The notes under the pieces are model-generated. The model did no database searches. It saw nothing but the letters and a program-made list of their open reading frames with translations, and was not told where the DNA came from. 44,461 nt of DNA from Nocardioides pocheonensis. GTDB lineage: Bacteria > Actinomycetota > Actinomycetes > Propionibacteriales > Nocardioidaceae. The DNA lies in contig NZ_RJSF01000039.1 in assembly GCF_003725535.1 (NCBI RefSeq), positions 1 through 44,461 on the forward strand, written 5' to 3'. This document shows, one piece after another, positions 10,591 to 39,058 of this stretch. Made by a program: the position numbers and the translations under genes. Positions within the stretch are counted from its first letter, which is position 1. Every line of letters starts with the position of its first letter.

Positions 10591-11432
10591 GTGAGGTTTC
10601 GGCAGGCTCGACCACCGAGGGCGCTTCGACCACCGGGGGCGCGTCGACCACCGAGGGCGCCTCGACCGGCGCCAGTCGTGCCGAGGTCTGCGCTGCCGCG
10701 ATCGCGGACGCGTTCAAGGACGACGGCGAGATCTTCGCCAGCCCGATGGGCACGCTGCCGATGCTCGGCGTCCGGCTCGCCAAGCTCACCTCGAACCCCG
10801 ACCTGGTGATCTCCGACGGTGAGTCGCTGTTCCTCGCCGGCGTGCCGCCGCTGTTCGCCAAGGGCGACGTGGTCGAGGGCTGGATCCCCTTCCGCCGGGT
10901 CTTCGACGTGGTCGCGTACGGGAAGCGCCACGTGATGATGGGCGCCACCCAGGTGGACCGGCACGGCAACCAGAACATCTCCGCGATCGGCGACTTCGCC
11001 CGGCCCCAGCGCCAGCTGCTCGGGTCCCGTGGCGCTCCGGGCAACACGGTCAACAACCGGACGTCGTACTGGGTGCCGCGGCACACCACGCGGGTGTTCG
11101 TCGAGCAGGTCGACGTCGTCAGCGGCGTCGGCCCGAAGCGCGCCAGGGAAGCCGGCCCCGCGGCGGCGAAGTACAACGACATCCACCGGATCGTCTCCAA
11201 CCTCGGCGTCTTCGACGTCCGCGGCCCGGACGACACCGTGCGGCTGCTCAGCGTGCACCCCGGCGTGAGCGTGGACGAGGTCGTCGAGAGCACCGGGTTC
11301 GACCTCGCGGTCGAGGCCGACGTGCCCACCACCCGGGAGCCCACCGAGTCCGAGCTGATGATCGTCCGCAACGTGCTCGACCCCAGGAACCTGCGCGACC
11401 GAGAGGTCCCGCCCGTGGAGGTGGCTCGATGA
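10587..11432 (+). CDS. ipdB: IpdB, beta subunit of the ring-C-cleaving hydrolase, with a repeat-derived N-terminus
   Basis: A 281-residue CoA-transferase-fold beta subunit and partner of IpdA. The conserved body starts near residue 31 (SRAEVCAAAIADAF) and includes SDGESLFLAG and YGKRHVMMGATQVDRHGNQN. Residues 5-30 are Ser/Thr/Gly-rich and encoded by a mini-repeat plus an 18-bp tandem repeat (STTEGA, STTGGA, STTEGA, STGAS). This extension is absent from the family as I know it and is probably a flexible tail. Starts and stops overlap ipdA and ipdC by ATGA. Function should be retained because the catalytic body is intact. Confidence 0.92.
   Translation: MSEVSAGSTTEGASTTGGASTTEGASTGASRAEVCAAAIADAFKDDGEIFASPMGTLPMLGVRLAKLTSNPDLVISDGESLFLAGVPPLFAKGDVVEGWIPFRRVFDVVAYGKRHVMMGATQVDRHGNQNISAIGDFARPQRQLLGSRGAPGNTVNNRTSYWVPRHTTRVFVEQVDVVSGVGPKRAREAGPAAAKYNDIHRIVSNLGVFDVRGPDDTVRLLSVHPGVSVDEVVESTGFDLAVEADVPTTREPTESELMIVRNVLDPRNLRDREVPPVEVAR
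10595..10673 (+). repeat. In-frame mini-repeat followed by an 18-bp tandem repeat inside ipdB
   Basis: 10595-10616 is a short-form GGTTTCGGCAGGCTCGACC repeat. From 10608 an 18-bp unit beginning TCGACCACCGAGGGCGC is present three times (10608-10625, 10626-10643, 10644-10661), then partially to 10673. The tandem part appears to be an amplification of the repeat edge and its flank. It is in frame throughout. Confidence 0.9.
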
Positions 11433-12496
11433 TCGAGCAGCTCCTCCGCACGCCGCTGACCGACCTGGTCGGCGTCCGGCACCCGGTCGTGCAGACCGGC
11501 ATGGGCTGGGTCGCCGGTCCGCGGCTGGTCTCCGGCACCGCGAACGCCGGCGGCCTGGGCATCCTGGCGTCGGCCACGATGACCTTCGAGGAGCTCGAGA
11601 AGGCGATCGTCGAGGTCAAGGAGCGCACCGACCAGCCGTTCGGCGTCAACCTGCGCGCCGACGCGGGCGACGCCGCCGACCGCTGCCGGCTGCTGATCGA
11701 CCACGGCGTGAAGGTGGCCAGCTTCGCGCTGGCTCCCAAGCCGGAGCTGATCGCGATGCTCAAGGAGCGCGACATCGTCGTGATCCCGAGCATCGGGGCA
11801 CCCAAGCACGCGAAGAAGGTCGCCTCGTGGGGCGCCGACGCGGTGATGATCCAGGGCGGCGAGGGCGGCGGCCACACCGGCAACGTGCCGACCACCCTGC
11901 TGCTGCCGACCGTGCTCGACGCGGTCGACATCCCCGTGGTCGCCGCCGGCGGGTTCTTCGACGGCCGCGGCCTCGCGGCTGCGCTGTCGTACGGCGCGGC
12001 CGGCGTCGGCATGGGCACGCGGTTCCTGCTCACCCGCGACTCGACCGTGCCCGACGCCGTCAAGCAGCGCTACCTCGCGGCCGACCTCGACGGCACGGTC
12101 GTCACCGCCAAGGTCGACGGCATGCCGCACCGGATGCTGCGCACCGAGCTCGTCGAGTCGGTCGAGGAGGGCAACGCGCTGAAGCGGCTCGGGCCGACCG
12201 CCCGCCGCACGCTCGCGTTCAAGCGGATGAGCGGGATGTCGTGGCGCCAGCTGGTCGCCGACGGCCGCGCGATGAAGCACGGACAGGACCGCTCCTGGGC
12301 GCAGATGGTGCTCGCCGCCAACACGCCGATGATGCTCAGGGCCGGACTGGTCGAGGGCGACGCCGGGGCCGGCGTGCTCGCGTCGGGCCAGGTGGTCGGC
12401 GTGATCGACGACCTGCCCAGCTGCGAGGAGCTGATCGACCGGGTGGTCACGCGCGCGGCTGCCGAGCTGCGCCGCACGCAGGGCTACCTGGCCTGA
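11429..12496 (+). CDS. ipdC: IpdC, flavin-dependent oxidoreductase (nitronate monooxygenase-like fold)
   Basis: A 355-residue TIM-barrel flavoprotein of the nitronate monooxygenase/2-nitropropane dioxygenase family. Rv3553 (IpdC) of M. tuberculosis, of the same family and map position, is assigned a redox step on the unsaturated C/D-ring CoA thioester. Visible features are HPVVQTGMGWVAGP at the N-terminus, IQGGEGGGHTG for FMN phosphate binding and VVAAGGFFDGRG plus GVGMGTRFLLT at the end of the barrel. It overlaps the ipdB stop by ATGA and ends the plus-strand operon. Its last 13 bases overlap the 3' end of the convergent VOC gene. Confidence 0.9.
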   Translation: MIEQLLRTPLTDLVGVRHPVVQTGMGWVAGPRLVSGTANAGGLGILASATMTFEELEKAIVEVKERTDQPFGVNLRADAGDAADRCRLLIDHGVKVASFALAPKPELIAMLKERDIVVIPSIGAPKHAKKVASWGADAVMIQGGEGGGHTGNVPTTLLLPTVLDAVDIPVVAAGGFFDGRGLAAALSYGAAGVGMGTRFLLTRDSTVPDAVKQRYLAADLDGTVVTAKVDGMPHRMLRTELVESVEEGNALKRLGPTARRTLAFKRMSGMSWRQLVADGRAMKHGQDRSWAQMVLAANTPMMLRAGLVEGDAGAGVLASGQVVGVIDDLPSCEELIDRVVTRAAAELRRTQGYLA

Positions 12497-12843
12497 TCCG
12501 TCTCGAGAGGAGCCCCGCCGAAGCAGAGCTCGTTGCCGTCGGGATCCCGGTACGTCGCGTGGCGCACGCCGTTCGCGTAGGTCTCCTGCGCGGTCGGTTC
12601 GAGGCCGCGTGCGGCGGTCGCCGACAGGCGTCGGTCGAAGTCGTCGACGAAGAGCGTGCTGCGCGCGTGCCCGGCGTGCTCGGGCCGCACCTCGACGTAC
12701 AGGTAGCGGTGCTCGGCGATCTCCCAGACCGCCTCCGTGTCGTTCGGGTAGAAGGCGGGCTCGGAGCCCAGGAGGCGCTCGTACCACGCCACGGCGCCCT
12801 CGAGCTCGCTCACCGGGACGCCCGCGAACAGGTCGACCGTCAT
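12484..12843 (-). CDS. VOC-superfamily (glyoxalase/bleomycin-resistance fold) protein
   Basis: A 119-residue single-module VOC protein: opening VPVSELEGAVAWYERLLG, the middle RYLYVEVRPEHAGHARSTLFVDD and the closing YRDPDGNELCFGG. The last motif carries the usual metal-binding Glu. The substrate is unknown. It lies convergent with ipdC and overlaps it by 13 bases. It is divergent from the lipase-like gene with a 35-base gap. In mycobacteria the corresponding position holds fdxB and Rv3555c, so this is a local replacement. A steroid role is possible but not shown. Confidence 0.8.
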   Translation of the reverse strand: MTVDLFAGVPVSELEGAVAWYERLLGSEPAFYPNDTEAVWEIAEHRYLYVEVRPEHAGHARSTLFVDDFDRRLSATAARGLEPTAQETYANGVRHATYRDPDGNELCFGGAPLETDQAR

Positions 12844-12878
12844 GATCCGACGCTAACGTCTCTGCGAGGATCGGGCGC

Positions 12879-14129
12879 ATGAGCGAGCTGCGCGGGACGG
12901 CCGTCAACGCCGCGGTTCGCTACGCGCTGGGCGCGGTCGGCGCCCGGCAGCTGCGGACGGTGCCCCGCACGGCGTTCTACGACCCGCCCGCCGAGGTGCC
13001 GGCCCGGCCGGGCACGCTGATCCGCAGCCAGGAGGCGAAGTTCTACCTCGATCCCTGGCGGCTGCTGCGCGCACCCGCCCGCGCCGAGCGGGTCATGTAC
13101 AGCAGCACCGACCGGCTCGGTCGGCCGATCGCCGTGACCGGCACGGTGCTCTCCCCCACCCGCCCACGCAGCAAGCGCGCGGACCGCGGGCTGGTCGCCT
13201 TCGCCGTGGGCACGCAGGGCATGGGCGACCAGTGCGCGCCGTCGCGGCAGCTCGCCGCCGGGCGCGAGTACGAGTCGGTGTTCATCGCTGGGCTGCTCGC
13301 CCGGGGCTTCAACGTCGTGGTGCCCGACTACCAGGGGCTGGGCATGGCGGGCACCCACACATACATGTCACGCGAGGTGCAGGGGCACGTCGTGCTCGAC
13401 GCCCTGCGCGCCGCGCAGGACCTCGACAACCCCGACATCCCCCGCGACGGCCCGGCCGCGATCGCCGGGTACTCGCAAGGCGGTGCGGCCGCGGCCTCGG
13501 CGGCCGAGCTGTGGCACGACTACGCACCCGAGGTCCAGGTGCTGGGAGCCGTCTGCGGTGCGGTGCCCGCCGACCTGCGGCTGCTCGCCGCCGCGATCGA
13601 CGGGAGCCCGTACTTCGCCTTCCTGGGCTACGCGCTCGTCGGCCTCTCCGCGGACTACCGCGTCGACCTGTTCCCGCTGCTGAACGACCGCGGCAACGAG
13701 ATCGCCGCGCAGCTGGAGAGCCAGTGCATGTTCGAGTCGCTGCGCCGGTACGCCTTCACGCGGTCGGAGACCCTCACCCGGGACGGCCGCACGCTCGAGC
13801 ATGTGCTCGCGCAGGAGCCGTTCGCCCGGATCGTCGAGGAGCAGGAGCTGGGCAACGGCCGGGCCCCGCGGATGGACACGCTGGTCTCCCACAGCAAGCT
13901 CGACGACGTCGTGCCCTACGAGTGCGGCCGGGCGCTGGCCGAGCGGTGGGCCGCCCTCGGCGCACACGTGCGGTTCTCCACCAACTACGCGCCCACCCAT
14001 GCGGCAGCCGCGGTCGCGTCGTACGGCAGCGCGTTCACGTTCCTGCACCGCCGGTTCCGCGGCCTCCCCACCCAGGCCAACACCGCGGCGTACCTGCACG
14101 GCCTCAAGGACGACGACCCGGCTCGTTGA
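12879..14129 (+). CDS. LIP-type alpha/beta-hydrolase (secretory-lipase family, no signal peptide seen)
   Basis: A 416-residue serine hydrolase resembling the LIP/secretory lipase family common in steroid- and lipid-degrading actinomycetes. The nucleophile is Ser199 in AGYSQGGAAA. A likely acid is in SKLDDVVPYECG and the His in TNYAPTHAAA. VPDYQGLGMAGTHTYM is a typical family segment. The N-terminus (MSELRGTAVNAAVRYALGAV) is not a clear signal peptide, so the protein may be cytoplasmic or the start may be wrong. A TAACGT -10-like box lies about 25 bases upstream and GAGG about nine bases before ATG. The stop codon is formed by the edge of an inverted repeat. Steryl-ester or triglyceride hydrolysis is a guess. 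Confidence 0.85.
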   Translation: MSELRGTAVNAAVRYALGAVGARQLRTVPRTAFYDPPAEVPARPGTLIRSQEAKFYLDPWRLLRAPARAERVMYSSTDRLGRPIAVTGTVLSPTRPRSKRADRGLVAFAVGTQGMGDQCAPSRQLAAGREYESVFIAGLLARGFNVVVPDYQGLGMAGTHTYMSREVQGHVVLDALRAAQDLDNPDIPRDGPAAIAGYSQGGAAAASAAELWHDYAPEVQVLGAVCGAVPADLRLLAAAIDGSPYFAFLGYALVGLSADYRVDLFPLLNDRGNEIAAQLESQCMFESLRRYAFTRSETLTRDGRTLEHVLAQEPFARIVEEQELGNGRAPRMDTLVSHSKLDDVVPYECGRALAERWAALGAHVRFSTNYAPTHAAAAVASYGSAFTFLHRRFRGLPTQANTAAYLHGLKDDDPAR

Positions 14130-14230
14130 GTTGGGGGAAACTGCCCCTCGAGTTCGGCGAAAGCGTCATCACGACACACCTGCACCGGGCGGTTTCCCCC
14201 CACTGGCAGGGCGATTTCCCCCAACTCAAC
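14125..14230. repeat. 106-bp element with perfect 16-bp inverted ends between convergent genes
   Basis: GTTGAGTTGGGGGAAA (14125-14140) is the exact inverse complement of TTTCCCCCAACTCAAC (14215-14230). An additional GGTTTCCCCCC tract lies inside, near 14190. The left end contains the TGA stop of the lipase-like gene and the right end that of the GNAT gene. It may act as a bidirectional terminator or be a miniature element. Confidence 0.85.
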
Positions 14231-15209
14231 GGAGGCGGCGCTGGAACTCGACGGTCCGGCCGACGGGGCGGTAGCCCAGGGCCTCGTTGACCGCGATCAT
14301 GTGCCGGTTGGACTCGGCGTTGTCGGTGTAGATCCGGGTGAGCTGGGGCTCCACCTCGGCGAGCCAGAGCAGCATCTCGGCCTTCATGAGCAGGCCGAGG
14401 CGGTGGCCGCGGTGGGCGCGGACGACGCTGGTGTCGTGCTGCTCGCCGATCTCCGGCTGCTCGGAGTCCACGACGACGACGGTGTGGCCCGCCAGCTCAC
14501 CGGTGGGCCGGTGCCGGGCGACCACGCGGCGGAACCGGAGCCCCGACTCGACCTGCGCGCGCTCGTAGGCGCGCACCCGGTCGACGCTGTAGACCTCGTC
14601 CTCCCACTCGAGGTCGTCGACCGGGGCGTCGTTGATCGCGGCGGTGAGGTCGACCAGCGCGGGCAGCAGGTCGTCCGGGGAGCTGCCCTCGACGCGGAGC
14701 AGCTCGTAGTCCTGCGCGTGCGCTGCCGCGGCGTCCCGGATCGGCCCGAGGTCCGGCGCCTCCGCGACCACCTGGAGCCGACGGATCTCCGCGCTCCTGC
14801 GCTCGTAGCCGAGCGCGGTCGCCACCCGGTGCAGGCCCGGCTCGTCCCAGCCGGACAGATGGATCAGGGGTCGATCCATCGCGGCGGCCAGCTCCTCCAG
14901 ACCGTGCAGCATCGCAGCACCGTGGCCCCGGCGCCGGAGCCCTGGTGCGACCGTGAGGCGCAGCCAGGCCAGGTCGAGGTTGTCGTAGTCGCTGGCGTCG
15001 ATCGCCGCCGCCCCGACCGGCGTGGCGCCGTCGTAAGCGACGAACCAGCGGCCGGGCTCGCCCTCCCAGCTGTGCCGCATGTACTGCACCTGCCGGTACG
15101 CCGTGCGCACCGGCTCCCACGGCGAGTCGACCGCTCTCGCACGGTTGGCGACGTCGAGGAAGGCGGTGAGGTGGTCCGCCTCGTCAGGTCCGAACTCGAC
15201 CAGCTCCAT
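14226..15209 (-). CDS. Tandem GNAT-domain acetyltransferase (mycothiol-synthase-like layout)
   Basis: A 327-residue protein with two GNAT modules. The first has the acetyl-CoA loop VAPGLRRRGHGAAMLHGL around residues 90-107. The second has the RAHRGHRLGLLMKAEMLLWL segment near residue 275, followed by TDNAESNRHMIAVNEALGYR. The double-module arrangement is shared with mycothiol synthase and many uncharacterised actinobacterial acetyltransferases. The substrate is unknown. The ATG at 15207-15209 matches the natural N-terminus MELVEFGPDEAD; a longer frame to 15407 is rejected. The stop codon lies in the right arm of the 14125-14230 inverted repeat. Confidence 0.82.
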   Translation of the reverse strand: MELVEFGPDEADHLTAFLDVANRARAVDSPWEPVRTAYRQVQYMRHSWEGEPGRWFVAYDGATPVGAAAIDASDYDNLDLAWLRLTVAPGLRRRGHGAAMLHGLEELAAAMDRPLIHLSGWDEPGLHRVATALGYERRSAEIRRLQVVAEAPDLGPIRDAAAAHAQDYELLRVEGSSPDDLLPALVDLTAAINDAPVDDLEWEDEVYSVDRVRAYERAQVESGLRFRRVVARHRPTGELAGHTVVVVDSEQPEIGEQHDTSVVRAHRGHRLGLLMKAEMLLWLAEVEPQLTRIYTDNAESNRHMIAVNEALGYRPVGRTVEFQRRLR

Positions 15210-15252
15210 GATTCGAGTGTCGCGGAGCCGCCCGGCCGGGTCGAACGGGTTT

Positions 15253-16416: not shown

Positions 16417-16435
16417 TTCAGACTCCTTGTCGTGC

Positions 16436-16512
16436 GGTGGTTTCGAGGTGGTTCCTGAGGAGGGCGCGCAGCGACCGTCTCGAAGGGCTCGCTGGCGCTC
16501 GCACCTCAACCA
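16436..16512. repeat. Composite mini-repeat between kstR2 and fadA6
   Basis: Two GGTTTCGAGG-type units and a GACCGTCTCGAAGGG junction end with CTCGCTGGCGCTCGCACC and TCAACCA. The right edge overlaps the 3' end of kstR2, where GGT TGA of the repeat supplies the final Gly codon and the stop. Confidence 0.8.
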
Positions 16513-17117
16513 TCGGTCTTCGCGATCCCCTCGAGGAGGATGGTCAGGTACTGGTCGGCGACCTGGGACGGGGACAGCTCACCGCCGGGGCGGTACCAGC
16601 GCACCGCCACCCAGACCGTGTCGCGCAGGAAGCGGTAGACCAGCTCGACGTCGAGGTCGGCGCGCAGCTCTCCGGCCTCCACGCCGGCCTCGAGCAGGCC
16701 GGTCCAGAGCCGGCGGAACCGGACGTTGCGCTCCTCGAGGTAGCCGAACCGCTCGAACCCGATCAGGTAGGACGCGTCGTTCTGGAAGATCGCGACCTCG
16801 CTGTGGTGGTGGTCGATCGCGTCGAACGAGGCCCGCACGACCGCCTCGAGCTTGGCCCGCGGCGACAGGTCCGAGCCGGTGATGGCGTCGTACTCCTTCC
16901 ACAGCTCGCGCTGGAAGGTGTCGAGCAGCTCGTCGACCATCGACTCCTTGGAGTCGAAGTGGTGGTAGAGGCTGCCGGAGAGGATGCCGGCGGCGTCGGC
17001 GATGTCGCGCACCGTGGTGTTCTTGAACCCGCGCTCGGCGAAGAGCCTCGCCGCGATCGCGAGCAGCTCCTCGCGGCGGCCTCCGGCCGGTCGCTCAGGC
17101 GTGCTGGCTGCTGACAC
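16506..17117 (-). CDS. kstR2: KstR2, TetR-family repressor of the HIP regulon
   Basis: A 203-residue TetR regulator. KstR2 represses C/D-ring degradation genes and is released by HIP-CoA. The N-terminal HTH spans about residues 14-60, with FAERGFKNTTVRDIADAAGI and SGSLYHHFDSKESMVDELL as the recognition region. The C-terminal half is a ligand domain with HHHSEVAIFQNDASYL and VRWYRPGGELS. The GTG at 17115-17117 overlaps the 3' end of ipdF by 23 bases, so it is translated from the same mRNA. KstR2 palindromes at 8889 and 19104 imply that it controls both divergent promoters and its own transcript. The stop codon is repeat-derived. Confidence 0.9.
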   Translation of the reverse strand: MSAASTPERPAGGRREELLAIAARLFAERGFKNTTVRDIADAAGILSGSLYHHFDSKESMVDELLDTFQRELWKEYDAITGSDLSPRAKLEAVVRASFDAIDHHHSEVAIFQNDASYLIGFERFGYLEERNVRFRRLWTGLLEAGVEAGELRADLDVELVYRFLRDTVWVAVRWYRPGGELSPSQVADQYLTILLEGIAKTDG

Positions 17118-17898: not shown

Positions 17899-19091
17899 GC
17901 TCGTGCCTCCTTCGGGAGGCCGAGCACGCGCTCGGCCAGGATGTTGCGCTGCACCTCGTCGGAGCCGCCGTAGATGGTGTCGGCCCGGCTGAACAGGAAC
18001 AGCCGCTGCCACGGGTCGAGGTCGTAGCCCGGCCCGGCGGTCAGCGCCTCGGTGCCGCGCACCAGCATCGCCAGCTCGCCCAGGGTGCGGTGCCAGGTCG
18101 CCCAGAGCAGCTTCGCGACGCTGGCCGACCCGACGGACTGCTCCGCCTCCCCTTGCTGACTCAGGGTGCGCAGCGCGTTGAGCCGGATCACCTCGAGCTC
18201 GACGTCGGCGCGGGCGAGCCGGTCGCGCACGACCGGGTCGTCGAGGCTGCCGTTGCCACGCGCGACCTCGAGCAGCGCGTCCAGCTCGCGGCGGAAGCCG
18301 ACCTGCTGGCCGAGCGTCGACACGCCCCGCTCGAAACCGAGCAGGCCCATCGCGACCGCCCAGCCCTGCCCGGGCTCACCGACGACCAGGTCGGCCTCGG
18401 TGCGGGCGGCGGTGAAGAAGACCTCGTTGAACTCCGCTCCCCCGGTCAGCTGCTCGATGCCCCGGATCTCGACGCCCTCCTGGCGGGTCGGGACGAGAAG
18501 GAAGCTGAGCCCGTGGTGCCGCTGCGAGCCCGGTTCGGTGCGGGCCAGCACGAAGATCCACTCCGAGAACTGCGCCAGGGACGTCCACACCTTCTGGCCG
18601 TCGATCACCCACTCCTGGGTGGTTGAGCCTGCCGAAACCAGCCGCGCCTTGGTCTGCACGTTGGCGAGGTCGGAGCCGGCGCCCGGCTCGGAGTAGCCCT
18701 GGCACCACAGCTCCTCGACCGCACGGATGCCCGGGAGGAAGCGCTGCTGCTGCTCCGGCGTACCGAACGCGATCAGGGTCGGGCCGAGCAGCTCCTCGCC
18801 GAGGTGGTTGACGCGCGCAGGGGCGTTCGCCCGGGCGTACTCCTCGTGGAAGATGACCTGCTGCGACAGGCTCAGCCCGCGGCCCCCGTGCTCGACCGGC
18901 CAGCCGATGCAGGTCCAGCCGTGCCGGGCGAGGTGGCGGTCCCACTCCAGGCGCTCGTCGTGCGCCTCGAGGTCCTTGCCGGAGCCGCCGAGGCCCTTGA
19001 GCGCCGCGAAGTCACCCACCAGGTGGTCCTCGAGCCATGCGCGGACCTCGGCGCGGAAGGCGCGGTCCTCGGGGGCGTCGGTCAGGTCCAT
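17895..19091 (-). CDS. fadE30: FadE30, acyl-CoA dehydrogenase of HIP degradation
   Basis: A 398-residue acyl-CoA dehydrogenase-fold flavoprotein; FadE30 acts early on CoA-activated HIP. Seen are the substrate/FAD strand CQGYSEPGAGSDLANVQT, the WVIDGQKVWTSLAQF segment and the C-terminal YGGSDEVQRNILAERVLG motif. The loop between the first two carries an extra VSAGSTTQ peptide (from Val152) encoded by a mini-repeat. The ATG at 19089-19091 is close to the KstR2 site; an open extension to 19190 crosses the promoter and is rejected. It heads the minus-strand transcript and is divergent from fadD3 by 59 bases. Confidence 0.92.
   Translation of the reverse strand: MDLTDAPEDRAFRAEVRAWLEDHLVGDFAALKGLGGSGKDLEAHDERLEWDRHLARHGWTCIGWPVEHGGRGLSLSQQVIFHEEYARANAPARVNHLGEELLGPTLIAFGTPEQQQRFLPGIRAVEELWCQGYSEPGAGSDLANVQTKARLVSAGSTTQEWVIDGQKVWTSLAQFSEWIFVLARTEPGSQRHHGLSFLLVPTRQEGVEIRGIEQLTGGAEFNEVFFTAARTEADLVVGEPGQGWAVAMGLLGFERGVSTLGQQVGFRRELDALLEVARGNGSLDDPVVRDRLARADVELEVIRLNALRTLSQQGEAEQSVGSASVAKLLWATWHRTLGELAMLVRGTEALTAGPGYDLDPWQRLFLFSRADTIYGGSDEVQRNILAERVLGLPKEARA
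18618..18639 (-). repeat. Short mini-repeat inserted in fadE30
   Basis: On the minus strand it reads GGTTTCGGCAGGCTCAACC plus ACC and is translated V-S-A-G-S-T-T from residue 152. Same orientation and frame as the copies in ipdB, fadD3 and fadE31. Confidence 0.85.
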
Positions 19092-19150: not shown

Positions 19151-20746
19151 GTGTCGACGCCCGGAGACCAGACACCTGGCGACCAGCCACGCACGCTCCC
19201 CGGCGTGCTCCGAGCCGCGGCGCACCGCTTCGGCGACCACCCGGCGTACGTCGAGGGTGAGCGCAACGTGTCCTTCCAGGCCCTGCTCGACCACGTGCGC
19301 GACGTGGCCCGGGGCTACCTCGCCTACGGTCTCGAGCCCGGGTTCCGGGTCGTCGTCTGGGCGCCGAACAGCATCGACTGGGTGGTCGCCGCGCTGGCCG
19401 TCACGTACGCCGGCGGCACCCTCGTGCCCGCCAACTCCCGCTACACCGGTCACGAGGTCGCGGACCTCGTCGACCGCACCGGCGCCGCCCTCGTGGTCGT
19501 CGACGACGGGTTCCTCGGCCGCACCCAGGTGGCGGACCTGCGGGCGGCGAGCGCCCTCCCCTCGGTGCGCGACGTGATCGACATCAAGTTCCTGCAGGTC
19601 GACGTCGGCGACGTGGACGCGCACGACGTCACCCTGGACGAGGTCGAGGCGCGCGCCGACGCTGTGTCCCCCGACGACGTGGCCGACATCCTGTTCACCT
19701 CCGGCACCACCGGCCGCCCGAAGGGCGCGATGTCCGCGCACCGCCAGACCGTCGGCGTCGCCCGGGCGTGGGGCGAGCTCGGCGGCGTCACCGCGGACGA
19801 CCGCTACCTGGTGATCAACCCGTTCTTCCACTCGTTCGGCTACAAGGCCGGGATCGTGGTGGGTCTGACCACCGGCGCCACCCTCTACCCGGTCAGCACC
19901 TTCGACCTCGACCGGACGATGCGCCTGATCCAGGACGAGCGGATCACGGTGCTCCCGGGCGCCCCGACGATCTACCAGTCGCTCCTGGGCGCCCCGAACC
20001 GCGCCGACTTCGACCTCTCCTCGCTGCGGCTCGCCGTCACGGGCGCCGCGGTCGTCCCCGTCGTGCTGATCGAGCGCATGCGCGCGCCCGAGCCGGAGGG
20101 TCTCGCGATCGACCACGTCGTGACCGCCTTCGGGATGACCGAGGCCGTGGTGGTGACGATGTGCCGCGAAGGCGACTCGGCCGAGGTCGTCGCGACCACC
20201 TGCGGTCGGGCGATCCCTGGCATGGAGACCCGGATCGCGGAGAACGGTGAACTGCTCCTCCGCGGGGAGTTCGTGATGCTCGGCTACCTCGACGACCCGG
20301 CCGCCACGGCCGAGGCCATCGACCCCGACGGCTGGCTGCACACCGGCGACATCGGCAGGCTCGACGAGCAGGGCAACCTGACGATCACCGACCGGCTCAA
20401 GGACATGTACATCAGCGGCGGCTTCAACGTGTACCCCGCCGAGGTCGAGCAGGCCCTGATGCGGCTCGACGGCGTCCAGGACGTCGCCGTGGTCGGCGTA
20501 CCCGACGAGCGGATGGGCGAGGTGGGCAGGGCGTACGTCGTGGTCTCGGCAGGCTCGACCGCCACCGTCGATGCGGACGCCGTGCTCGCCTTCGCCAAGG
20601 AGCGGCTCGCGAACTTCAAGGTGCCGCGCCAGGTGGTGCTGGTCGACGCACTCCCCCGCAACCTCGGGGGCAAGGTGCTCAAGAACGAGCTGCGCACCCG
20701 GGCTGTCGAGGCTGCCGGGACCCAGCGAACCGACGAGGAGCGTTGA
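19151..20746 (+). CDS. fadD3: FadD3, HIP-CoA synthetase
   Basis: A 531-residue AMP-forming acyl-CoA synthetase; FadD3 activates the C/D-ring propanoate HIP to its CoA ester, the entry step of this cluster. The P-loop-like motif LFTSGTTGRPKGA starts near residue 181. The hinge region DRLKDMYISGGFNVYPAEVE and the C-terminal Lys508 in LGGKVLKNEL complete the adenylating fold. The GTG at 19151 has an AAGGAGGT site seven bases upstream; the open extension to 19037 would cross the operator. Near residue 465 a VSAGSTA peptide from a mini-repeat sits in the mobile C-terminal domain. The stop overlaps the fadE31 start (TGATG). Confidence 0.93.
   Translation: MSTPGDQTPGDQPRTLPGVLRAAAHRFGDHPAYVEGERNVSFQALLDHVRDVARGYLAYGLEPGFRVVVWAPNSIDWVVAALAVTYAGGTLVPANSRYTGHEVADLVDRTGAALVVVDDGFLGRTQVADLRAASALPSVRDVIDIKFLQVDVGDVDAHDVTLDEVEARADAVSPDDVADILFTSGTTGRPKGAMSAHRQTVGVARAWGELGGVTADDRYLVINPFFHSFGYKAGIVVGLTTGATLYPVSTFDLDRTMRLIQDERITVLPGAPTIYQSLLGAPNRADFDLSSLRLAVTGAAVVPVVLIERMRAPEPEGLAIDHVVTAFGMTEAVVVTMCREGDSAEVVATTCGRAIPGMETRIAENGELLLRGEFVMLGYLDDPAATAEAIDPDGWLHTGDIGRLDEQGNLTITDRLKDMYISGGFNVYPAEVEQALMRLDGVQDVAVVGVPDERMGEVGRAYVVVSAGSTATVDADAVLAFAKERLANFKVPRQVVLVDALPRNLGGKVLKNELRTRAVEAAGTQRTDEER
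20542..20560 (+). repeat. Short mini-repeat inserted in fadD3
   Basis: GGTCTCGGCAGGCTCGACC, translated V-S-A-G-S-T (residues 465-470). One base differs from the ipdB copy (GGTC for GGTT). Confidence 0.8.
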
Positions 20747-21969
20747 TGGACCTCACCCTGTCCGACTCCGAGCGTGCCTTCCAGGAGGAGGTGCGCGCGT
20801 GGCTCGCGGCGAACGTGCCGACCACCCGCCTGCCCTCGATGGACTCCGCCGAGGGCTTCCTCGCCCACCAGGAGTGGGAGGCGCGGCTCGCCGAGGCGCG
20901 CCTGTCGGTGGTCTCCTGGCCCGAGGAGCTCGGCGGGCGAGGAGCCTCGCTGGTCGAGTGGGTGATCTTCGAGGAGGAGTACTACCGCGCCGGTGCTCCG
21001 GGCCGGGTCAGCCAGAACGGCATCTTCCTGCTCGCGCCGATCATCTTCGAGCACGGCACCCCCGAGCAGCAGCAGCGCTTCCTCCCGACGATGGCCACCG
21101 GGGAGAAGGTCTGGGCCCAGGCCTGGTCCGAGCCCGAGGCCGGCTCGGACCTGGCGTCGCTGCGCTCCACCGCGACCAGGGTCTCGGCAAGCTCGACCAC
21201 CGGCGGTCGTTCGGGCTGGCTGCTGAACGGCCAGAAGACCTGGTCGTCGCGCGCGGCGTACGCGCACTGGGGCTTCGGGCTGTTCCGCAGCGATCCCGAG
21301 GCCGAGCGGCACCACGGGCTCACCTACTTCGTCTTCCCGCTGGACGCCGAGGGGATCACGGTCCGGCCGATCGCCCAGCTCGACGGCGAGCCCGGCTTCG
21401 CCGAGCTGTTCTTCGACGACGTCTTCGTGCCCGACTCCGACGTGCTCGGCGCTCCCGGGGACGGCTGGCGGGTCGCGATGAGCACCGCCGGCAACGAGCG
21501 CGGGCTCTCGCTGCGCTCGCCGGGACGGTTCTGCGCCGCGGCCGACCGGCTGGTGGAGCTGTGGCAGTCCACGGAGGGCGAAGAGGTTTCGCCGCTCGCG
21601 GGCGCTCGCACCTCGACCACCAAGGCGGCCGACGGCGTCGTCGACGCCTGGATCAAGGCGCAGGCCTACCGCCTCTACACCTGGGGCACGGTGACGCGCC
21701 TGGCCGGCGGCGGCGACATCGGAGCTGCGGGGTCGGTGAACAAGGTGTTCTGGAGCGAGCTGGACGTCGCCCTCCACGAGACCGCGCTCGACCTGCTCGG
21801 TGCGGAGTCGGAGCTGGCCGACTCCCCGTGGATGGACGGGTACCTCTTCTCGCTGTCCGGACCGATCTACGCCGGCACCAACGAGATCCAGCGCAACATC
21901 GTGGCCGAGCGGATCCTCGGCCTCCCCCGCGAGCCCAAGGGCAGTGTCGCGAAGGAGGGGCAGAAGTGA
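20746..21969 (+). CDS. fadE31: FadE31-type acyl-CoA dehydrogenase with two repeat-derived loops
   Basis: A 407-residue acyl-CoA dehydrogenase, third of four in the cluster. AQAWSEPEAGSDLASLRS and WLLNGQKTWSSRAAYA are the FAD/substrate strands. The C-terminal YAGTNEIQRNIVAERILG is the classical terminal motif, so this is likely a catalytically complete subunit. Two mini-repeats add VSASSTTGG (from residue 146) and VSPLAGARTSTT (from residue 281). These could account for most of the excess over the roughly 380 residues I expect. The ATG overlaps the fadD3 stop; GAGGAG lies six bases upstream. The 3' end overlaps fadE32 by GTGA. A heteromeric partnership with FadE32/FadE33 is possible. Confidence 0.9.
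   Translation: MDLTLSDSERAFQEEVRAWLAANVPTTRLPSMDSAEGFLAHQEWEARLAEARLSVVSWPEELGGRGASLVEWVIFEEEYYRAGAPGRVSQNGIFLLAPIIFEHGTPEQQQRFLPTMATGEKVWAQAWSEPEAGSDLASLRSTATRVSASSTTGGRSGWLLNGQKTWSSRAAYAHWGFGLFRSDPEAERHHGLTYFVFPLDAEGITVRPIAQLDGEPGFAELFFDDVFVPDSDVLGAPGDGWRVAMSTAGNERGLSLRSPGRFCAAADRLVELWQSTEGEEVSPLAGARTSTTKAADGVVDAWIKAQAYRLYTWGTVTRLAGGGDIGAAGSVNKVFWSELDVALHETALDLLGAESELADSPWMDGYLFSLSGPIYAGTNEIQRNIVAERILGLPREPKGSVAKEGQK
21180..21201 (+). repeat. Short mini-repeat in fadE31 (first copy)
   Basis: GGTCTCGGCAAGCTCGACC plus ACC, translated V-S-A-S-S-T-T. It is in the loop homologous to that of the fadE30 insertion, just before the W-x-NGQK strand. Confidence 0.8.
21585..21621 (+). repeat. Long mini-repeat in fadE31 (second copy)
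   Basis: A 37-bp long-form copy starting GGTTTCGCCGCTCGCGG and ending CGCACCTCGACCACC, translated V-S-P-L-A-G-A-R-T-S-T-T. It lies in the surface region between helices of the C-terminal domain. Confidence 0.85.
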
Positions 21970-22952
21970 GGTTCGAGCTCACCGACGAGCAGGCCGGCTT
22001 CGGCCGGGCGCTGGGCGACCTGCTGGCCAGGGCCGACACGGTCGGCGTCGCGCGGGCCTGGGCCGAGGGCGACACCGGTCCCGGCCTCGGGCTGTGGAAG
22101 CGGCTGGCCGACCAGGGCGTCAACGCCCTCGTGGTCCCGGAGGAGGCCGGCGGCATGGGCGGCTCGCTCGTGGACCTGGTGGTCGCCCACGAGGTCCTCG
22201 GCCACCACCTCGCCGTGGGCCCGTGGATCGAGGCGTCCGCCTTCCTCGCCACGGCCCTGACCGGCGAGGCCCTGGAGGCGGTCGCCGCCGGCGCCGTCGC
22301 CACCGTGGCCCTGCCGCCGCACGTGCCCTTCGCGCTCGACGGCGACGTCGCCGAGGTGGTGTACGCCGGGACCGCGGACGGGCTCCTCCGCGCACGAGTC
22401 GGCGAGATCCGGGCGTCGGTGGACACGACCCGGCGGCTCGCCGAGGTGAGCGCGGAGGCGGGTGCTGACCACGCCGCGGGGCCGGAGGTTTCGAGGCTCG
22501 CTGGCGCTCGCACCTCAACCACCGGGGAGGTGGCAGCGTTCGACGTCGCGGTGCTCGCCTGCTCTGCCCAGCTGGTCGGCTGCGGCGAGCGGCTGCTGGC
22601 CGACACGGTCGCCTACGCGAAGCAACGCCGCCAGTTCGGTCGCGAGATCGGCTCCTACCAGGCGGTCAAGCACCAGCTCGCCGACGTGCGGATCGCGCTC
22701 GACTTCGCCCGGCCGCTGGTCCTGGGCGCGGCACTCGGGGAGGTGCCCGCGTCTGCGGCCAAGGTCGCCGCGGCCGATGCCGCCTACCTCGCCTCGCGGG
22801 TCGGCCTGCAGGTCCACGGCGCGATCGGCTACACCCGCGAGTTCGACCTCGGCCTGTGGATCACCCGCGTCCGCGCCCTCGTCGGCGCGTGGGGCACGCC
22901 GGCGTACCACCGCGGTCAGGTGCTCGCCACCCTCACGGGATCGGCGCGCTGA
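21966..22952 (+). CDS. fadE32: FadE32-type acyl-CoA dehydrogenase subunit
   Basis: A 328-residue short acyl-CoA dehydrogenase-fold protein. The helical N-domain (VPEEAGGMGGSLVDLVVAHEVLG) and the C-domain (YAKQRRQFGREIGSYQAVKH; VHGAIGYTREFDLGLWI) are clear. The terminal AGTNEIQ-type motif of FadE31 is missing, as expected for subunits that work as heteromers. Similar short proteins in mycobacteria form alpha2beta2 dehydrogenases of cholesterol degradation. A 37-bp mini-repeat adds VSRLAGARTSTT from residue 175, in the linker between the middle and C-terminal domains. The GTG start overlaps the fadE31 stop (GTGA) and the stop overlaps fadE33 (TGATG). Confidence 0.88.
   Translation: MRFELTDEQAGFGRALGDLLARADTVGVARAWAEGDTGPGLGLWKRLADQGVNALVVPEEAGGMGGSLVDLVVAHEVLGHHLAVGPWIEASAFLATALTGEALEAVAAGAVATVALPPHVPFALDGDVAEVVYAGTADGLLRARVGEIRASVDTTRRLAEVSAEAGADHAAGPEVSRLAGARTSTTGEVAAFDVAVLACSAQLVGCGERLLADTVAYAKQRRQFGREIGSYQAVKHQLADVRIALDFARPLVLGAALGEVPASAAKVAAADAAYLASRVGLQVHGAIGYTREFDLGLWITRVRALVGAWGTPAYHRGQVLATLTGSAR
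22487..22523 (+). repeat. Long mini-repeat in fadE32
   Basis: A 37-bp copy, GGTTTCGAGGCTCGCTGG followed by CGCTCGCACCTCAACCACC, translated V-S-R-L-A-G-A-R-T-S-T-T. It is essentially identical to the intergenic copies near 16480 and 44363. Confidence 0.9.
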
Positions 22953-29557: not shown

Positions 29558-29686
29558 TGAGCCTGCCGAAGTGAACGAGCTGGGACCCGACGCGAAGAGG
29601 TTGATTTCGGCAGGCTCAATCCACGGAGCGGGGCGCGGGTGAGCGTGCGCTTGTCCTGAGGTGCGAGCGCAGCGAGCCTCGAAGGG
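29558..29686. repeat. Inverted pair of short mini-repeats plus one long-form copy
   Basis: TGAGCCTGCCGAA (29558-29570) and TTCGGCAGGCTCA (29606-29618) form an exact 13-bp inverted repeat 35 bases apart. A long-form piece, CTGAGGTGCGAGCGCAGCG then AGCCTCGAAGGG, spans about 29656-29686. The block fills the gap after the CitE-like gene and could form a terminator-like structure. Confidence 0.85.
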
Positions 29687-31578: not shown

Positions 31579-31607
31579 TTGACGGAACCTGATGTTAGCG
31601 CGAACAT
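31579..31607 (+). promoter_or_regulatory. Arabinofuranosidase promoter with overlapping LacI-type operator
   Basis: TTGACG (31579-31584) is a good -35 element. ATGTTAGCGCGAACAT (31592-31607) is a 16-bp near-palindrome that differs by one base from the symmetric TGTTAGCGCTAACA type used by LacI-family sugar regulators in actinomycetes. It overlaps where the -10 would be, so repression relieved by a pentose is likely. The remaining part of the 31425-31676 gap shows nothing else clear. Confidence 0.6.
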
Positions 31608-31676
31608 TCCGTCTTGTGCGCCTGTGACCTGCGTTACACCCGCACTCTTTCGCCACTCGGGAAGCAAGGAGTCGCC

Positions 31677-35519: not shown

Positions 35520-35542
35520 CCGGGGCCCGCACGGGCCCGGTC
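35518..35542. terminator. Bidirectional GC-rich hairpin between convergent genes
   Basis: GACCGGGGCCCG and CGGGCCCGGTC form a stem with a single bulged G and a very short loop. It overlaps the ends of both convergent genes, the arabinofuranosidase and the TetR-like protein. No T-run. Confidence 0.5.
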
Positions 35543-35981
35543 AGGAGCCCCTGAGGGTCGCCCGGATCGCGGGAGCGAACTGCCGCACGATCTCGTCCGC
35601 GGGCGCGGAGGCGACGGGCTCGACCTGGAGCACGTAGCGCATCATCGCCAGCCCGACGAGCTGTCCGCAGACCAGCTCGAAGCGCAGCGCCGAGGCGTGC
35701 ACTCCCGTGGCCCGGGCGGCCGGGTTGACGACCGTGCGGTTCAGCACCTGGTAGAAGGCCCGGCCGGCGCGGGCGCTGCCGACCGAGGACCGCACCATCC
35801 GCAGCATGCCCTGGCGGGTGCGCGGGTTCTCGCACAGGCCGAGGAAGCTGCGCAGCAGCCGTTCGCTGAAGTCCACGGCCGTGTCCACCGCCACGTCGGC
35901 GGTGGCGGCGACCATCCTCGCCTCGGCGGCCCGGCAGGCGGCCAGCACCGCCGGCGAGTCGGGAAAGAGCGGAGCGCTCAC
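35541..35981 (-). CDS. TetR C-terminal (ligand-binding) domain without HTH
   Basis: A 146-residue protein matching only the C-terminal domain of a TetR subgroup (the TetR_C_16 type): FSERLLRSFLGLCENPRTRQ, MLRMVRSSVGSARAGRAFYQ, FELVCGQLVGLAMMRYVLQV and SAPADEIVRQFAPAIRATL. About 30 residues precede this but do not look like a helix-turn-helix. Only 19 bases separate the start from the upstream gene, so an HTH has not simply been missed. A TACCGT -10-like box six bases before the GTG suggests a leaderless transcript. It could dimerise with a full TetR protein or be a decayed gene. Confidence 0.7.
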   Translation of the reverse strand: MSAPLFPDSPAVLAACRAAEARMVAATADVAVDTAVDFSERLLRSFLGLCENPRTRQGMLRMVRSSVGSARAGRAFYQVLNRTVVNPAARATGVHASALRFELVCGQLVGLAMMRYVLQVEPVASAPADEIVRQFAPAIRATLRGS

Positions 35982-36000
35982 CGGACCACGGTAGCGGTGG

Positions 36001-36459
36001 TCAGGGGCGCGGTGGCTCCCGCGTCCCGTCGCCGGACTGGTCCGGGAGCAGCCGGCGGTGCAGCTCGGTCGTGAGCGTGTGGATCGCCCGGGTGATCTCG
36101 GTGTTGGTCTTGAGCTCGAGCTCCTGCTCGACGAAGTCGTGGTCGGCCTTCGCCTGCTGGTACGCCGACTGCCGGTTCTGCCCGATCATGACGAACGTGG
36201 ACAGGAAGATCGCCTCCAGGGACACCACGAGCGTGAGCGTTGGCCAGGGTGAGGACTCGACCAGCAGCATCCAGCCCGCGAACACCACGACGTGGATGTA
36301 GACGAACGCCATCGACCCGGCGAACTTCGTGATCGCGTCCGCCACCCGCAGCTGCAGCTGCGCCGCCCGGCGCTCCGCGACCCGCTGGTACGCCGGGTGG
36401 GCCGGCGTCGGGCCGGGCTGCCCGTCCACCCGGGCTGCGGGAGTGTCGATGCCGCTCAT
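36001..36459 (-). CDS. DUF1003 membrane protein
   Basis: A 152-residue protein with the DUF1003 signature: ITKFAGSMAFVYIHVVVF, then PTLTLVVSLEAIFLSTFVMI and GQNRQ. There are two transmembrane helices, a basic N-terminal cytoplasmic part (QRVAERRAAQLQLRVADA) and a helical C-terminal tail that may form a coiled coil. Function is unknown for the family. The ATG at 36459 has GGAGG upstream; a GTG three codons earlier is also open. It lies between the hsa operon and the TetR-like gene, all on the minus strand; the 108-base gap to hsaB suggests it is not part of the steroid operon. Confidence 0.85.
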   Translation of the reverse strand: MSGIDTPAARVDGQPGPTPAHPAYQRVAERRAAQLQLRVADAITKFAGSMAFVYIHVVVFAGWMLLVESSPWPTLTLVVSLEAIFLSTFVMIGQNRQSAYQQAKADHDFVEQELELKTNTEITRAIHTLTTELHRRLLPDQSGDGTREPPRP

Positions 36460-36567
36460 CCTGACCACCTCCGGAGTCGTCGGTGACCAGCATGGCCCGC
36501 CGGCCGACGCGCGGCGGGCACGACACGACGCCGGTCGCCGACGAGGCGCCCAGGAGCCGCCCCGGAG

Positions 36568-37221
36568 TCAGTCCACGCGAGCGGTGGTGTCGTAGCCGCC
36601 GCGGTAGTACAGCAACGGCTTGCCGTCCTCGCCGAAGCCGAGCTCGCGCACGCGGCCGAGCACCACGTAGTGGTCCCCCGCCTCGTGCACGGAGTGCACC
36701 GTGCAGTCCACGAACCCGATGGCGCCCTCGATCAGCGGGGCGCCCGTGGTCGCGGGCCTCCAGTCGATGCCGTCGTACTTGTCGGTGCCCTTGGTGGCCA
36801 TCGCCTGGGAGACGTCGGCCTGGTCGGCGGCGAGGAAGTTCACGCAGAAGAAGCCGGCGCGCTGCATCAGCGGCCAGGCGCGGGAGGTCTTCGCCGGGCA
36901 GAACATCACCAGCGGCGGCTCCAGCGACACCGAGGAGAAGGACTGGCAGGTCATGCCGACCGGCGAGCCGTCCGACATCGAGGTCACCACGGTCACCCCG
37001 CTGGCGAACAGGCCCAGGACGTCGCGGAACCGCCGGGCCCGGGCCGCGGACTCCGGGTCGTCGGGGATCGGCGTGTGCTCGCCGAGGCGCATCTCGAAGT
37101 CGAGCTCGTTGCCGAGCCACGACCGGATCAGCTCCTGGCTGGGCCAGGTCTCCCGGGCGTCGTCGCTCATCCCCTCCGGGATGTCGCCCTGGGATTCCTT
37201 GGTCACCGGACCATTCTTCAT
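36568..37221 (-). CDS. hsaB: HsaB, flavin reductase partner of HsaA
   Basis: A 217-residue flavin reductase that supplies reduced FMN to the HsaA monooxygenase. The flavin-reductase domain runs from about residue 65: FRDVLGLFASGVTVVTSMSD, VGMTCQSFSSVSLEPPLVMF, RAGFFCVNFLAADQ and IGFVDCTVHSVHEAGDHYVV. Compared with the roughly 187-residue mycobacterial protein, it has about 50 extra N-terminal residues, rich in acidic residues; an internal Met18 start would shorten this. It is the last gene of hsaA-hsaD-hsaC-hsaB, the gene order known from M. tuberculosis. Confidence 0.92.
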   Translation of the reverse strand: MKNGPVTKESQGDIPEGMSDDARETWPSQELIRSWLGNELDFEMRLGEHTPIPDDPESAARARRFRDVLGLFASGVTVVTSMSDGSPVGMTCQSFSSVSLEPPLVMFCPAKTSRAWPLMQRAGFFCVNFLAADQADVSQAMATKGTDKYDGIDWRPATTGAPLIEGAIGFVDCTVHSVHEAGDHYVVLGRVRELGFGEDGKPLLYYRGGYDTTARVD

Positions 37222-37262
37222 GTCGCCCCCGTCGTCCTCGTCACCGGCCGGTCACTGAGCAC

Positions 37263-38159
37263 TCACTGGCCGCCGAAGTCGTGACCCCAGTAGGACACCG
37301 CCGTGCTCTCGCGGGCGACCCAGCGGGCGTCGTCGACGCGCAGGCCCTCGCAGCCGAACTCGACGTCGAAGCCACCGGGCGACCTCACGTAGAAGGACAC
37401 CATCTCGTCGTTCATGTGCCGCCCGAGGGTCGCCGACAGCGGCGCCTTGTGCTTGCGCACCCGCTCGAGGGCACGACCCACGTGGTCGAGCTCGTCGACC
37501 TCGAGCATCACGTGCACGCACTTGGCCGGGTTCGGCATCGGCAGGAACGCGAGGCTGTGGTGGCGCGGGTTGACGCCGAGGAAGCGCAGCCAGACCTTGG
37601 AGCCGGGCTCCTTGCCGACGAACTCGCCCGGCATGCTCATCGAGTCGCGCAGCCGGAAGCCGAGCACCTCGGTGTAGAACCGGAGCGCCTCGACGTCGTC
37701 GGTCACCGGGATGACGATGTGGCCCATGCCCTGGTCGCCGGTGACGAACCGCGCAGCGTACGGCGTGACCACGGGCCGCGACTCGTAGGTGATGCCGTGG
37801 AACAGCTCGAAGACGTTGTCCCACGGGTCGGAGAAGCGGACCAGCTCCTGGACGCGGCGGTCGGCGAGCTCGTCGGGCGTGCCCTCCTCGAAGACCACGC
37901 CGGCCTCCTTGAGGTGGAGGCGGGCCGCCTGCAGGGCCTGGTGGTCGGCGACCTCCCAGCCGGTCGCGGAGAGCTGGTCGACCTCGGCGGGGAACACGAC
38001 CACGCGGGCCGACACCTCGTCGATCCGGTAGTACAGGTGGTCGGGGTTCGGGCCGCGCCCGACGGCCAGCCCGAGCACCTTCTCCGCGAACGTGCGCCAG
38101 GCGTCGAGGTCCGTGCTGGCCACCCGGATGTAGCCCATGGACTTGATCTCGATCGTCAT
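37263..38159 (-). CDS. hsaC: HsaC, extradiol dioxygenase for steroid-derived catechol
   Basis: A 298-residue type I extradiol ring-cleavage dioxygenase that opens the catechol 3,4-DHSA between C4 and C5. Two VOC-type modules are present. The iron ligands are His147 (MGHIVIPV), His216 (KCVHVMLEV) and Glu267 (GGFDVEFGCEG). Neighbouring His200-His201 (NPRHHSLAF) provide the usual second-shell acid/base. Length agrees with the family (about 300). The ATG at 38157-38159 overlaps the hsaD stop as ATGA. A longer frame to 38249 is rejected. Confidence 0.96.
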   Translation of the reverse strand: MTIEIKSMGYIRVASTDLDAWRTFAEKVLGLAVGRGPNPDHLYYRIDEVSARVVVFPAEVDQLSATGWEVADHQALQAARLHLKEAGVVFEEGTPDELADRRVQELVRFSDPWDNVFELFHGITYESRPVVTPYAARFVTGDQGMGHIVIPVTDDVEALRFYTEVLGFRLRDSMSMPGEFVGKEPGSKVWLRFLGVNPRHHSLAFLPMPNPAKCVHVMLEVDELDHVGRALERVRKHKAPLSATLGRHMNDEMVSFYVRSPGGFDVEFGCEGLRVDDARWVARESTAVSYWGHDFGGQ

Positions 38160-39058
38160 GCGCGTGGCCTTTCCACGTGTCGTGCCAGGAATGCCGTGCA
38201 GATCTCGGCGAACTCGTCGGCGGCCTCGATCTGGGCCCAGTGACCACAATTCGGGAAGACATGCAGCTGGGCCTTCGGGATCAGCTTGAGGGCCACCATC
38301 GCTCCGTCGAGCGGGTTGACCCGGTCCTCCCGGCCCCAGGTGAGCAGGGTGTGCTTGCGCAGCGTGTGGGCCTCGCGCCAGAGCATGCCGTCCTCGGCGG
38401 TCTCGGGGTTCCAGAAGGACATCCCCATCGAGCGCATCGCCTCCTGGGCCCCGGGTGCGGTCGCGTCGGCGTACCGCTCCTCGACGAGCTCGTCGGTGAC
38501 CAGCGCCTGGTTGACCACCATCGTGGAGATGAACGCGCGCAGCGTCTCCCGCGACGGGTTCGCGCCGAAGTCCATCAACCGCTGCACCCCCTCCGTGGGG
38601 TCGGCGTGGAAGAGGTTCAGCGAGAGCCCGCCGGGCCCCATCAGCACGAGCCTGCCGACCCGGTCGGGGTGGCTCAGCGCGAGCCGCATCGCCGTGCCAC
38701 CGCCGAGGGAGTTGCCGAGCAGGTGCACCCGGTCGATCTGGAGCTCGTCGAGCAGCTTCACGACGTACTCGGCGGAGTGGCGGTAGTAGTTGCCGACCAC
38801 CGGCGGCTTGTCGGAGCCGCCGAAGCCGGGCTGGTCGACGAGCAGGGTGCGGAAGTCGGCGGCGAACCGCGGAAGCGCAGGCCCGAAGTTGCTCCAGGCG
38901 GAGGCTCCGGGCCCACCGCCGTGCAGCATCACCAGGGGCAGGCCCCCGCCGATCGCGCCTGAGGTCCCTGAGCCTGCCGAAGGGCCGGCCTCGTAGTAGT
39001 TCAGCGTGATGTCGCCGGCCTTGGCCGACCTCTGCACGGACTCCTTGTCGAAGGCCAT
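38156..39058 (-). CDS. hsaD: HsaD, meta-cleavage product hydrolase, with a repeat-derived loop
   Basis: A 300-residue alpha/beta-hydrolase that cleaves the C-C bond of the ring-opened product DSHA to give the HIP-type acid and a hexadienoate. Catalytic residues are Ser117 (LLGNSLGGGTA), Asp245 (WGREDRVNPLDG) and His273 (NCGHWAQ). Between NYYEAG and LPLVMLHGGGPG the protein carries about 13 more residues than mycobacterial HsaD as I recall it (PSAGSGTSGAIGG); part of this is encoded by a mini-repeat at 38966-38983. The stretch is before the oxyanion loop and should be surface-exposed. The start at 39058 lies four bases after the hsaA stop. Confidence 0.94.
   Translation of the reverse strand: MAFDKESVQRSAKAGDITLNYYEAGPSAGSGTSGAIGGGLPLVMLHGGGPGASAWSNFGPALPRFAADFRTLLVDQPGFGGSDKPPVVGNYYRHSAEYVVKLLDELQIDRVHLLGNSLGGGTAMRLALSHPDRVGRLVLMGPGGLSLNLFHADPTEGVQRLMDFGANPSRETLRAFISTMVVNQALVTDELVEERYADATAPGAQEAMRSMGMSFWNPETAEDGMLWREAHTLRKHTLLTWGREDRVNPLDGAMVALKLIPKAQLHVFPNCGHWAQIEAADEFAEICTAFLARHVERPRA
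38966..38983 (-). repeat. Short mini-repeat inserted in hsaD
   Basis: On the minus strand CCTTCGGCAGGCTCAGGG, a variant with altered ends of the short-form repeat, translated P-S-A-G-S-G. It keeps the frame TCG-GCA-GGC-TCA of the other copies. Confidence 0.7.

Follow-up and report, generated by a model that had tools for sequence, protein, structure and literature searches.

The window analysed here, a 44,461-nucleotide stretch of the genome of the soil bacterium Nocardioides pocheonensis (contig NZ_RJSF01000039.1, positions 1 to 44,461), holds the steroid-catabolism genes ipdB, fadE30, fadD3, fadE31, fadE32 and hsaD. A very short repeat lies in frame inside these six genes and recurs between genes (Table 1). 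An earlier note, made from the sequence alone, had described seven copies within the genes, and each was verified in its place and in the frame of its gene (GTT/GTC TCG... or CCT TCG...). Between genes, copies at 29558/29603, 43853, 43923 and 44363 stand, whereas the ones that the note placed at 16436 and 43787 are degenerate or composite. The short core matches the window 11 times (<=2 mismatches; 1.3 expected from shuffles) and the long core 6 times (0.02 expected). The gene names fared unevenly: the NCBIfam models FadD3 and HsaD match above cut-off, but acyl-CoA dehydrogenase models match the fadE30, fadE31 and fadE32 proteins only below cut-off (the best model for the fadE32 protein being IpdE2, also below), and the ipdB product has no NCBIfam match at E 1e-10. 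After the ipdB copy, GASTTEG-type codons are expanded in tandem (window:10608-10680), so that TTEGASTTGGASTTEGAST precedes the conserved protein start.

Table 1. Copies of the repeat in the window, with CCCT-type copies from four other genomes in the last row
Feature	Location and reading	Position	Strand	Basis
Short element	ipdB, residues 4-10 (VSAGSTT)	10595..10616	+	pattern match, reading frame
Degenerate composite copy, long-form 3' half at its end	intergenic	16436..16519	+	pattern match
Short element	fadE30, residues 152-158 (VSAGSTT)	18618..18639	-	pattern match, frame, orthologues
Short element	fadD3 (VSAGSTA)	20542..20563	+	pattern match, frame, orthologues
Short element	fadE31 first loop, residues 146-152 (VSASSTT)	21180..21201	+	pattern match, frame, orthologues, model
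Long element	fadE31 second loop, residues 281-292 (VSPLAGARTSTT)	21585..21621	+	pattern match, frame, orthologues, model
Long element	fadE32 (VSRLAGARTSTT)	22487..22523	+	pattern match, frame, orthologues
Short copies: 29558-29570 (-); 29603-29621 (+, GATT/AATC arms)	intergenic	29558..29621	both	pattern match
Short element, CCCT/AGGG arms	hsaD (PSAGSGT)	38963..38984	-	pattern match, frame, orthologues
Tandem of long copies: 43787 degenerate; 43853-43886 and 43923-43956 full	intergenic	43787..43956	-	pattern match
Long copy	intergenic	44363..44399	+	pattern match
CCCT-type copies, unlike internal ones	near C-termini, third frame (LRQAQEP type)	L057:4743, L060:4268, L063:12739, L240:1193		

Structure, abundance and mobility of the repeat

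The short form is a 19-bp interrupted palindrome in which 4-nt, mutually pairing arms enclose a constant 11-nt core, TCGRCARGCTC, usually with ACC on the 3' side; the long form measures about 37 bp. The arms occur as GGTT/AACC, GGTC/GACC, CCCT/AGGG and GATT/AATC. In N. pocheonensis and in another genome of the genus (G018), each of the four arm positions pairs across copies more often than in all 200 shuffles, and the pairing ends at four bases; the copies of a third Nocardioides genome (G002) are nearly uniform and add little to this test. Folded as single-stranded DNA, both 19-nt forms alone do no better than shuffles, the 25-nt forms with a GGT/ACC extension do better (7 and 2 of 200 shuffles being as good), and the long form is less clear-cut (20 and 6 of 200). 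The case for a hairpin rests better on arm pairing across copies than on fold strength. Each genome has its own core variant, TCGGCA in 66 of 67 copies in N. pocheonensis and TCGACA in all 49 copies in G002 and all 65 in G018.

The whole N. pocheonensis genome (4,923,121 bases) carries 207 copies of the short form with at most one mismatch, and a reversed control pattern gives 0. Distribution is patchy: exact copies were found in 19 of 24 genomes of the genus, numbering 1 to 179 in these; across the class, 19 of 296 sampled genomes carry the family, N. pocheonensis and G002 among them. Gene context was read from the window and 60 further tiles, a sample that amounts to 1,238,120 bases (from contigs up to C40 among the matches listed), with genes called by a home-made codon-based caller. 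Tiling began at the contig start for C3, C40 and C7 and for the first 80 kb of C23. All 40 tiles of G002 and G018, by contrast, were selected because they contain copies, as were the C36 tile and another five from C23, which biases densities there upwards but should not affect frames. Among the 94 strict copies in the sample, 57 are intergenic and 34 lie inside genes (33 genes); loose matching (2 mismatches, 5 for the long form) gives 128 copies, of which 75 are intergenic, 5 overlap a gene end and 48 are wholly in genes. Intergenic DNA is 12-17 times richer in copies than coding DNA. Neighbouring pairs at most 60 nt apart number 10, 12 and 16 among 76, 62 and 76 copies, in mixed orientation.

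All seven intergenic CCCT/AGGA copies that were found sit within another copy, directly after GAG, as an apparent 23-nt insert with three different junctions. An eighth copy, with TCCT/AGGA arms, also follows GGTTGAG, its right half being degraded. At the nested junctions no target duplication beyond 1 nt was seen. These nested copies are good evidence that the element inserts, even if some may be duplicates of one composite. Together with the mostly intergenic placement, the lineage-specific variants and the reading of the two strands as different peptides, they bear out the earlier proposal of a spreading element rather than a protein motif.

Two candidate movers were rejected. The Y1 transposase family (PF01797) has 0 matches in the N. 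pocheonensis genome, whereas 5 of 14 control genomes match. For DUF222-HNH genes, copy number does not follow the DUF222 count (Spearman 0.31, p 0.14, 24 genomes), and one genome (G007) has 20 DUF222 matches and 0 exact copies. A regular expression for HNH picked up three DUF222-HNH genes in the N. pocheonensis stretches and 0 in G002 and G018, and was too narrow, missing two DUF222 genes in the G002 stretches (G002:C7:3848-4891 and G002:C5:30452-31411). The first of these contains four short copies (L146:4157-4280), three reading VEPVET and one VSTSST. In N. pocheonensis, paralogous DUF222-HNH genes (L079, L110, L116 and L127) have short copies inside them and arrays of both repeat forms on their flanks, and some contigs begin with such arrays.

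Reading frames of copies inside genes

Under strict matching, with one copy counted per gene, all 33 N. pocheonensis genes read the element in just two frames, one per strand: 27 in a sense frame (VSAGST, VSRLAGARTST, PSAGSG) and 6 in an antisense frame (VEPAET type). The 48 in-gene copies under loose matching obey the same rule (36 sense, 12 antisense). The two frames account for 11 of 12 genes in G002 (3 sense, 8 antisense) and 20 of 25 in G018 (9 sense, 11 antisense), or 18/21 and 44/49 copies under loose matching. Pooled over the three genomes, 64 of 70 genes conform, with P ~2e-19 for an even draw of two of five frames, paralogues among these genes not being fully independent. At loci of other Nocardioidaceae, two sets of short and long in-gene copies fall in the two frames throughout (5 of 5 and 9 of 9, 14 in all), but none of the CCCT-type copies does (0 of 3 and 0 of 1). 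Exact in-gene copies in G002 read VEPVET or VELVET in 13 of 17 cases. One 1141-residue protein of G018 has eleven VEPVET-type copies (loose matching; L148:13238-14702) in a repetitive, linker-like stretch, and copies can therefore multiply within a gene too.

The earlier note had proposed a single orientation and a single one of the six possible frames. Both hold for the seven in-gene copies of the window; beyond it there are two frames, and antisense genes, the minority in the N. pocheonensis sample, are commoner than sense genes in G002 and about as frequent in G018. The frame bias as such is strong and did not vanish beyond the window. Its further point, that stop codons do not force the choice, is supported and now extends to three genomes. 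In the main short form, stops are absent from three of the four frames that go unused, and a G002 variant that is open in all six frames nevertheless keeps to the two. An artefact of gene calling or of stop codons could appeal to the home-made caller, to the TT..AA variants, one antisense frame of which has a stop, and to the GGTC variants, whose used antisense frame is favoured by codon usage. Against it stand the six-frame-open variant, the conserved residues that flank the inserts in the window and the codon scores. For the main short form of N. pocheonensis the codon log-odds are +2.6 for GFGRLNH, -3.3 for VSAGSTT and -2.2 for VVEPAET, and an unused frame is preferred for the main short, long and CCC forms alike, so neither codon usage nor the gene caller explains the choice there. 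Such an artefact is refuted for the window genes and can be given next to no credence in general.

The make-up of the peptides gives a different ranking. A score was derived from the 772 residues that occupy indel columns when 12 genes of the window, their repeats masked, are aligned with relatives. For the short form of N. pocheonensis it places VSAGSTT first (+0.50) and VVEPAET second (+0.08), the other open readings falling between -0.48 and -0.73. The short forms of N. pocheonensis and G018 agree, VS[AT]GSTT ranking first, VVEP[AV]ET second and the rest clearly lower. With the long and CCC forms, too, the sense reading comes top, although the runner-up of the long form cannot be separated from FRGSLALAPQP; in G002, VSTGSTT is first. 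These results support selection on the peptide as the main cause of the frame choice, but not as the whole story.

Occupied loops and the origin of shared sites

The peptides are missing from most orthologues of the six genes; in other species the corresponding sites are short variable loops, into which the element was inserted or where it replaced residues. On either side of the window inserts, residues are conserved among the aligned relatives (five genes, each with 36 to 50 orthologue rows); the start of ipdB is poorly aligned among orthologues. Both sites of fadE31 are gapped relative to PDB 4x28 (8 and 5 residues), and in an AlphaFold2 model (mean pLDDT 51; used for strand and helix order only) they lie between two strands and between two helices. 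The alignments and the gaps in 4x28, and weakly the low-confidence model, support the flexible loops that the earlier note had predicted, and general conservation of the peptides on diverged DNA in orthologues across the order was not observed. Even the nearest relative is just 83% identical to N. pocheonensis (four concatenated proteins), too distant for fixing exact borders or target duplications of the in-gene insertions. Outside the window, 10 of 10 tested insert-bearing proteins, picked from 26 listed, match a Pfam family; these include GatB, a His_biosynth-family protein, a NuoG-like subunit, a molybdopterin oxidoreductase and a fumarylacetoacetate hydrolase.

Other Nocardioidaceae carry the element in the same loops, always in the sense frame. 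With the window included, the occupied rows are 3/45 for fadE30, 3/45 for fadD3, 5/45 and 2/45 for the first and second loops of fadE31, 3/45 for fadE32 and 6/33 for hsaD; at the start of ipdB, one further genome (L050) has a copy. The sites other than ipdB were placed on a tree built from four concatenated proteins with the gappy columns removed, and there the minimum numbers of changes are 2, 3, 4, 2, 3 and 4 in the same order, 18 in total, a count that cannot separate gain from loss. Occupancy was assigned by eye from the alignments and includes two decayed copies (L232 fadE32, L238 hsaD). Five duplicate records were dropped, L276 was omitted, L067 was too short, L053 and L055 represent a single genome, and a few rows in which the gene is missing or cut off were scored as empty.

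A functional role of the peptides as a protein motif (a modification site, say), with the likeness in DNA secondary, would fit a Ser/Thr-rich peptide in the same loops of several species. This idea is largely refuted by the intergenic majority of strict copies, the unrelated antisense peptide and the many orthologues without the peptide, and is highly improbable. The shared sites could instead be ancestral or exchanged, a few old in-loop copies having been inherited or passed between species and then homogenised by gene conversion with other copies in the genome. N. pocheonensis and its nearest relative have the fadE30, first fadE31 and hsaD sites in common, each with its own genome's base, and two sister genomes (G016 and G004) both have an hsaD copy, the two copies being distinguished by a T-A to C-G change in a base pair of the arms and by a second change that is unpaired. 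On the other hand, the occupied tips are scattered (2-4 changes per site), and the hsaD codons downstream differ between L213 and L227 despite the same element. We regard this history as possible but doubtful; it is compatible with the explanation that we favour.

That explanation is probably a family of very small mobile repeats, interrupted palindromes of 19-37 bp, filtered by selection on the encoded peptide. Copies would spread to new sites, mainly between genes, and those landing in genes would be kept almost only in loops, linkers or termini, provided that they have a frame-preserving length and read VS[AT][GS]STT in sense or VVEP[AV]ET in antisense. Selection, not insertion specificity, would then set the frame, and the retained peptides are presumably near-neutral.

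Several observations weigh against this explanation. Two of the five off-frame genes in G018, which read [GR]FRQAQP (three genes), GFDKLNQ (one) and RLSLSKP (one), have the copy near the C-terminus, but the other three hold it internally. The CCCT-type copies near C-termini in four other genomes use a third frame in 4 of 4 cases (LRQ[AD][QE]EP). In the GGTC..GACC variant that dominates G002, VVEPVET has the best codon score (+2.9, with the codon model of N. pocheonensis), and codon fit may contribute to the frame choice there; the indel-residue score does not split VVEPVET (-0.06), the commonest reading in that genome, from GGRACRD (-0.04) or SRQARP (-0.10). Our confidence is reduced by this codon score and by the frame of the CCCT-type copies. 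Moreover, the analysis turned up neither a target-site duplication nor an empty strain nor a mobilising enzyme. Three fadE31 copies have GAG AGC GGC downstream in common, and some shared sites may therefore reflect descent or allele transfer. Finally, in fadE31, fadD3 and fadE30 copies from different species agree in the codon of their left border (CGG or AGG|GTN, GTG|GTC, CTG|GTN), which is more specific than loop tolerance alone needs.

These borders, the six loops that are occupied repeatedly and the seven nested copies directly after GAG would all be expected if insertion were site-specific, an enzyme targeting sequences in a fixed codon phase so that frame and loop are set by targeting and selection is secondary. 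Yet one hsaD copy is offset by one codon, the off-frame fifth of G018 genes includes both terminal and internal copies, and intergenic copies, judged by eye, share no flanking sequence except that GT often precedes and ACC often follows them. The loop-composition score also predicts both frames without targeting in two of the three genomes. Site-specific insertion is an unlikely account of the frames and loops.

Relation to known repeats

By behaviour, the closest known kind are the Rickettsia palindromic elements, which are palindromic repeats of ~150 bp lying in frame within unrelated protein-coding genes and encoding a conserved peptide (PMC10969869). The Nocardioides repeat shares the in-frame position in unrelated genes and the conserved peptide, but it measures 19-37 bp, belongs to an unrelated phylum, has two main frames (one per strand) and refills the same loops in different species. 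The likeness is one of behaviour and the size differs, so the repeat is not classed with them. The earlier statement that no such family is known holds for Nocardioidaceae as far as searched, but these elements are a known analogue.

REP sequences and REPINs (on the latter, PMC3116915) are likewise short palindromes with many copies, mostly intergenic, and some of the close pairs of mixed orientation described above may be inverted doublets like theirs; in contrast, N. pocheonensis has no Y1_Tnp/RAYT protein, and about one third of the strict copies (34/94) lie in genes. MITEs, ERIC, RU-1/2/3 and BOX (PMC10969869, PMC2759123, PMC2229807) are also non-autonomous repeats able to fuse to host genes, but the present repeat is much shorter; it has 4-nt paired arms, and its nested junctions show no target duplication longer than 1 nt. 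PARCEL is a palindromic DNA repeat coding for protein segments (PMC2996958); it is reportedly a tandem repeat-protein pattern, unlike single short loop inserts in unrelated enzymes. DNA uptake sequences (PMC2346458) are many short conserved motifs with biased in-gene orientation; by contrast, the present copies are far denser between genes (57/94 strict copies intergenic) and are insertions relative to orthologues. Neither the 15-base nor the 13-base form of the core occurs in any paper in open PMC full text, and a topic search of the open PMC literature, with subscription papers outside its reach, found no description of the family.

A bolder view, which we hold only tentatively, is that no smaller mobile element coding for protein is known: a hairpin that propagates itself, encodes a harmless loop peptide on each of its strands and homes again and again to the same enzyme loops across species, making it a recurrent natural loop-insertion system. 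In any case it is an unusually small instance of mobile DNA turned protein, in a free-living group where in-frame spread into enzymes, including housekeeping families (GatB, His_biosynth, NuoG-like), is directly testable. The same loops filled several times in different species serve as natural replicates, and they bear on the entry of new peptide segments into proteins, on frame filtering by selection and on the mobilising enzyme. In annotation, such loops should be taken as derived from a repeat and not as signs of conserved function. Apart from the repeat family, the window has a 42-nt inverted repeat (79% complementary; window:14124-14231) between two convergent genes, possibly a terminator.

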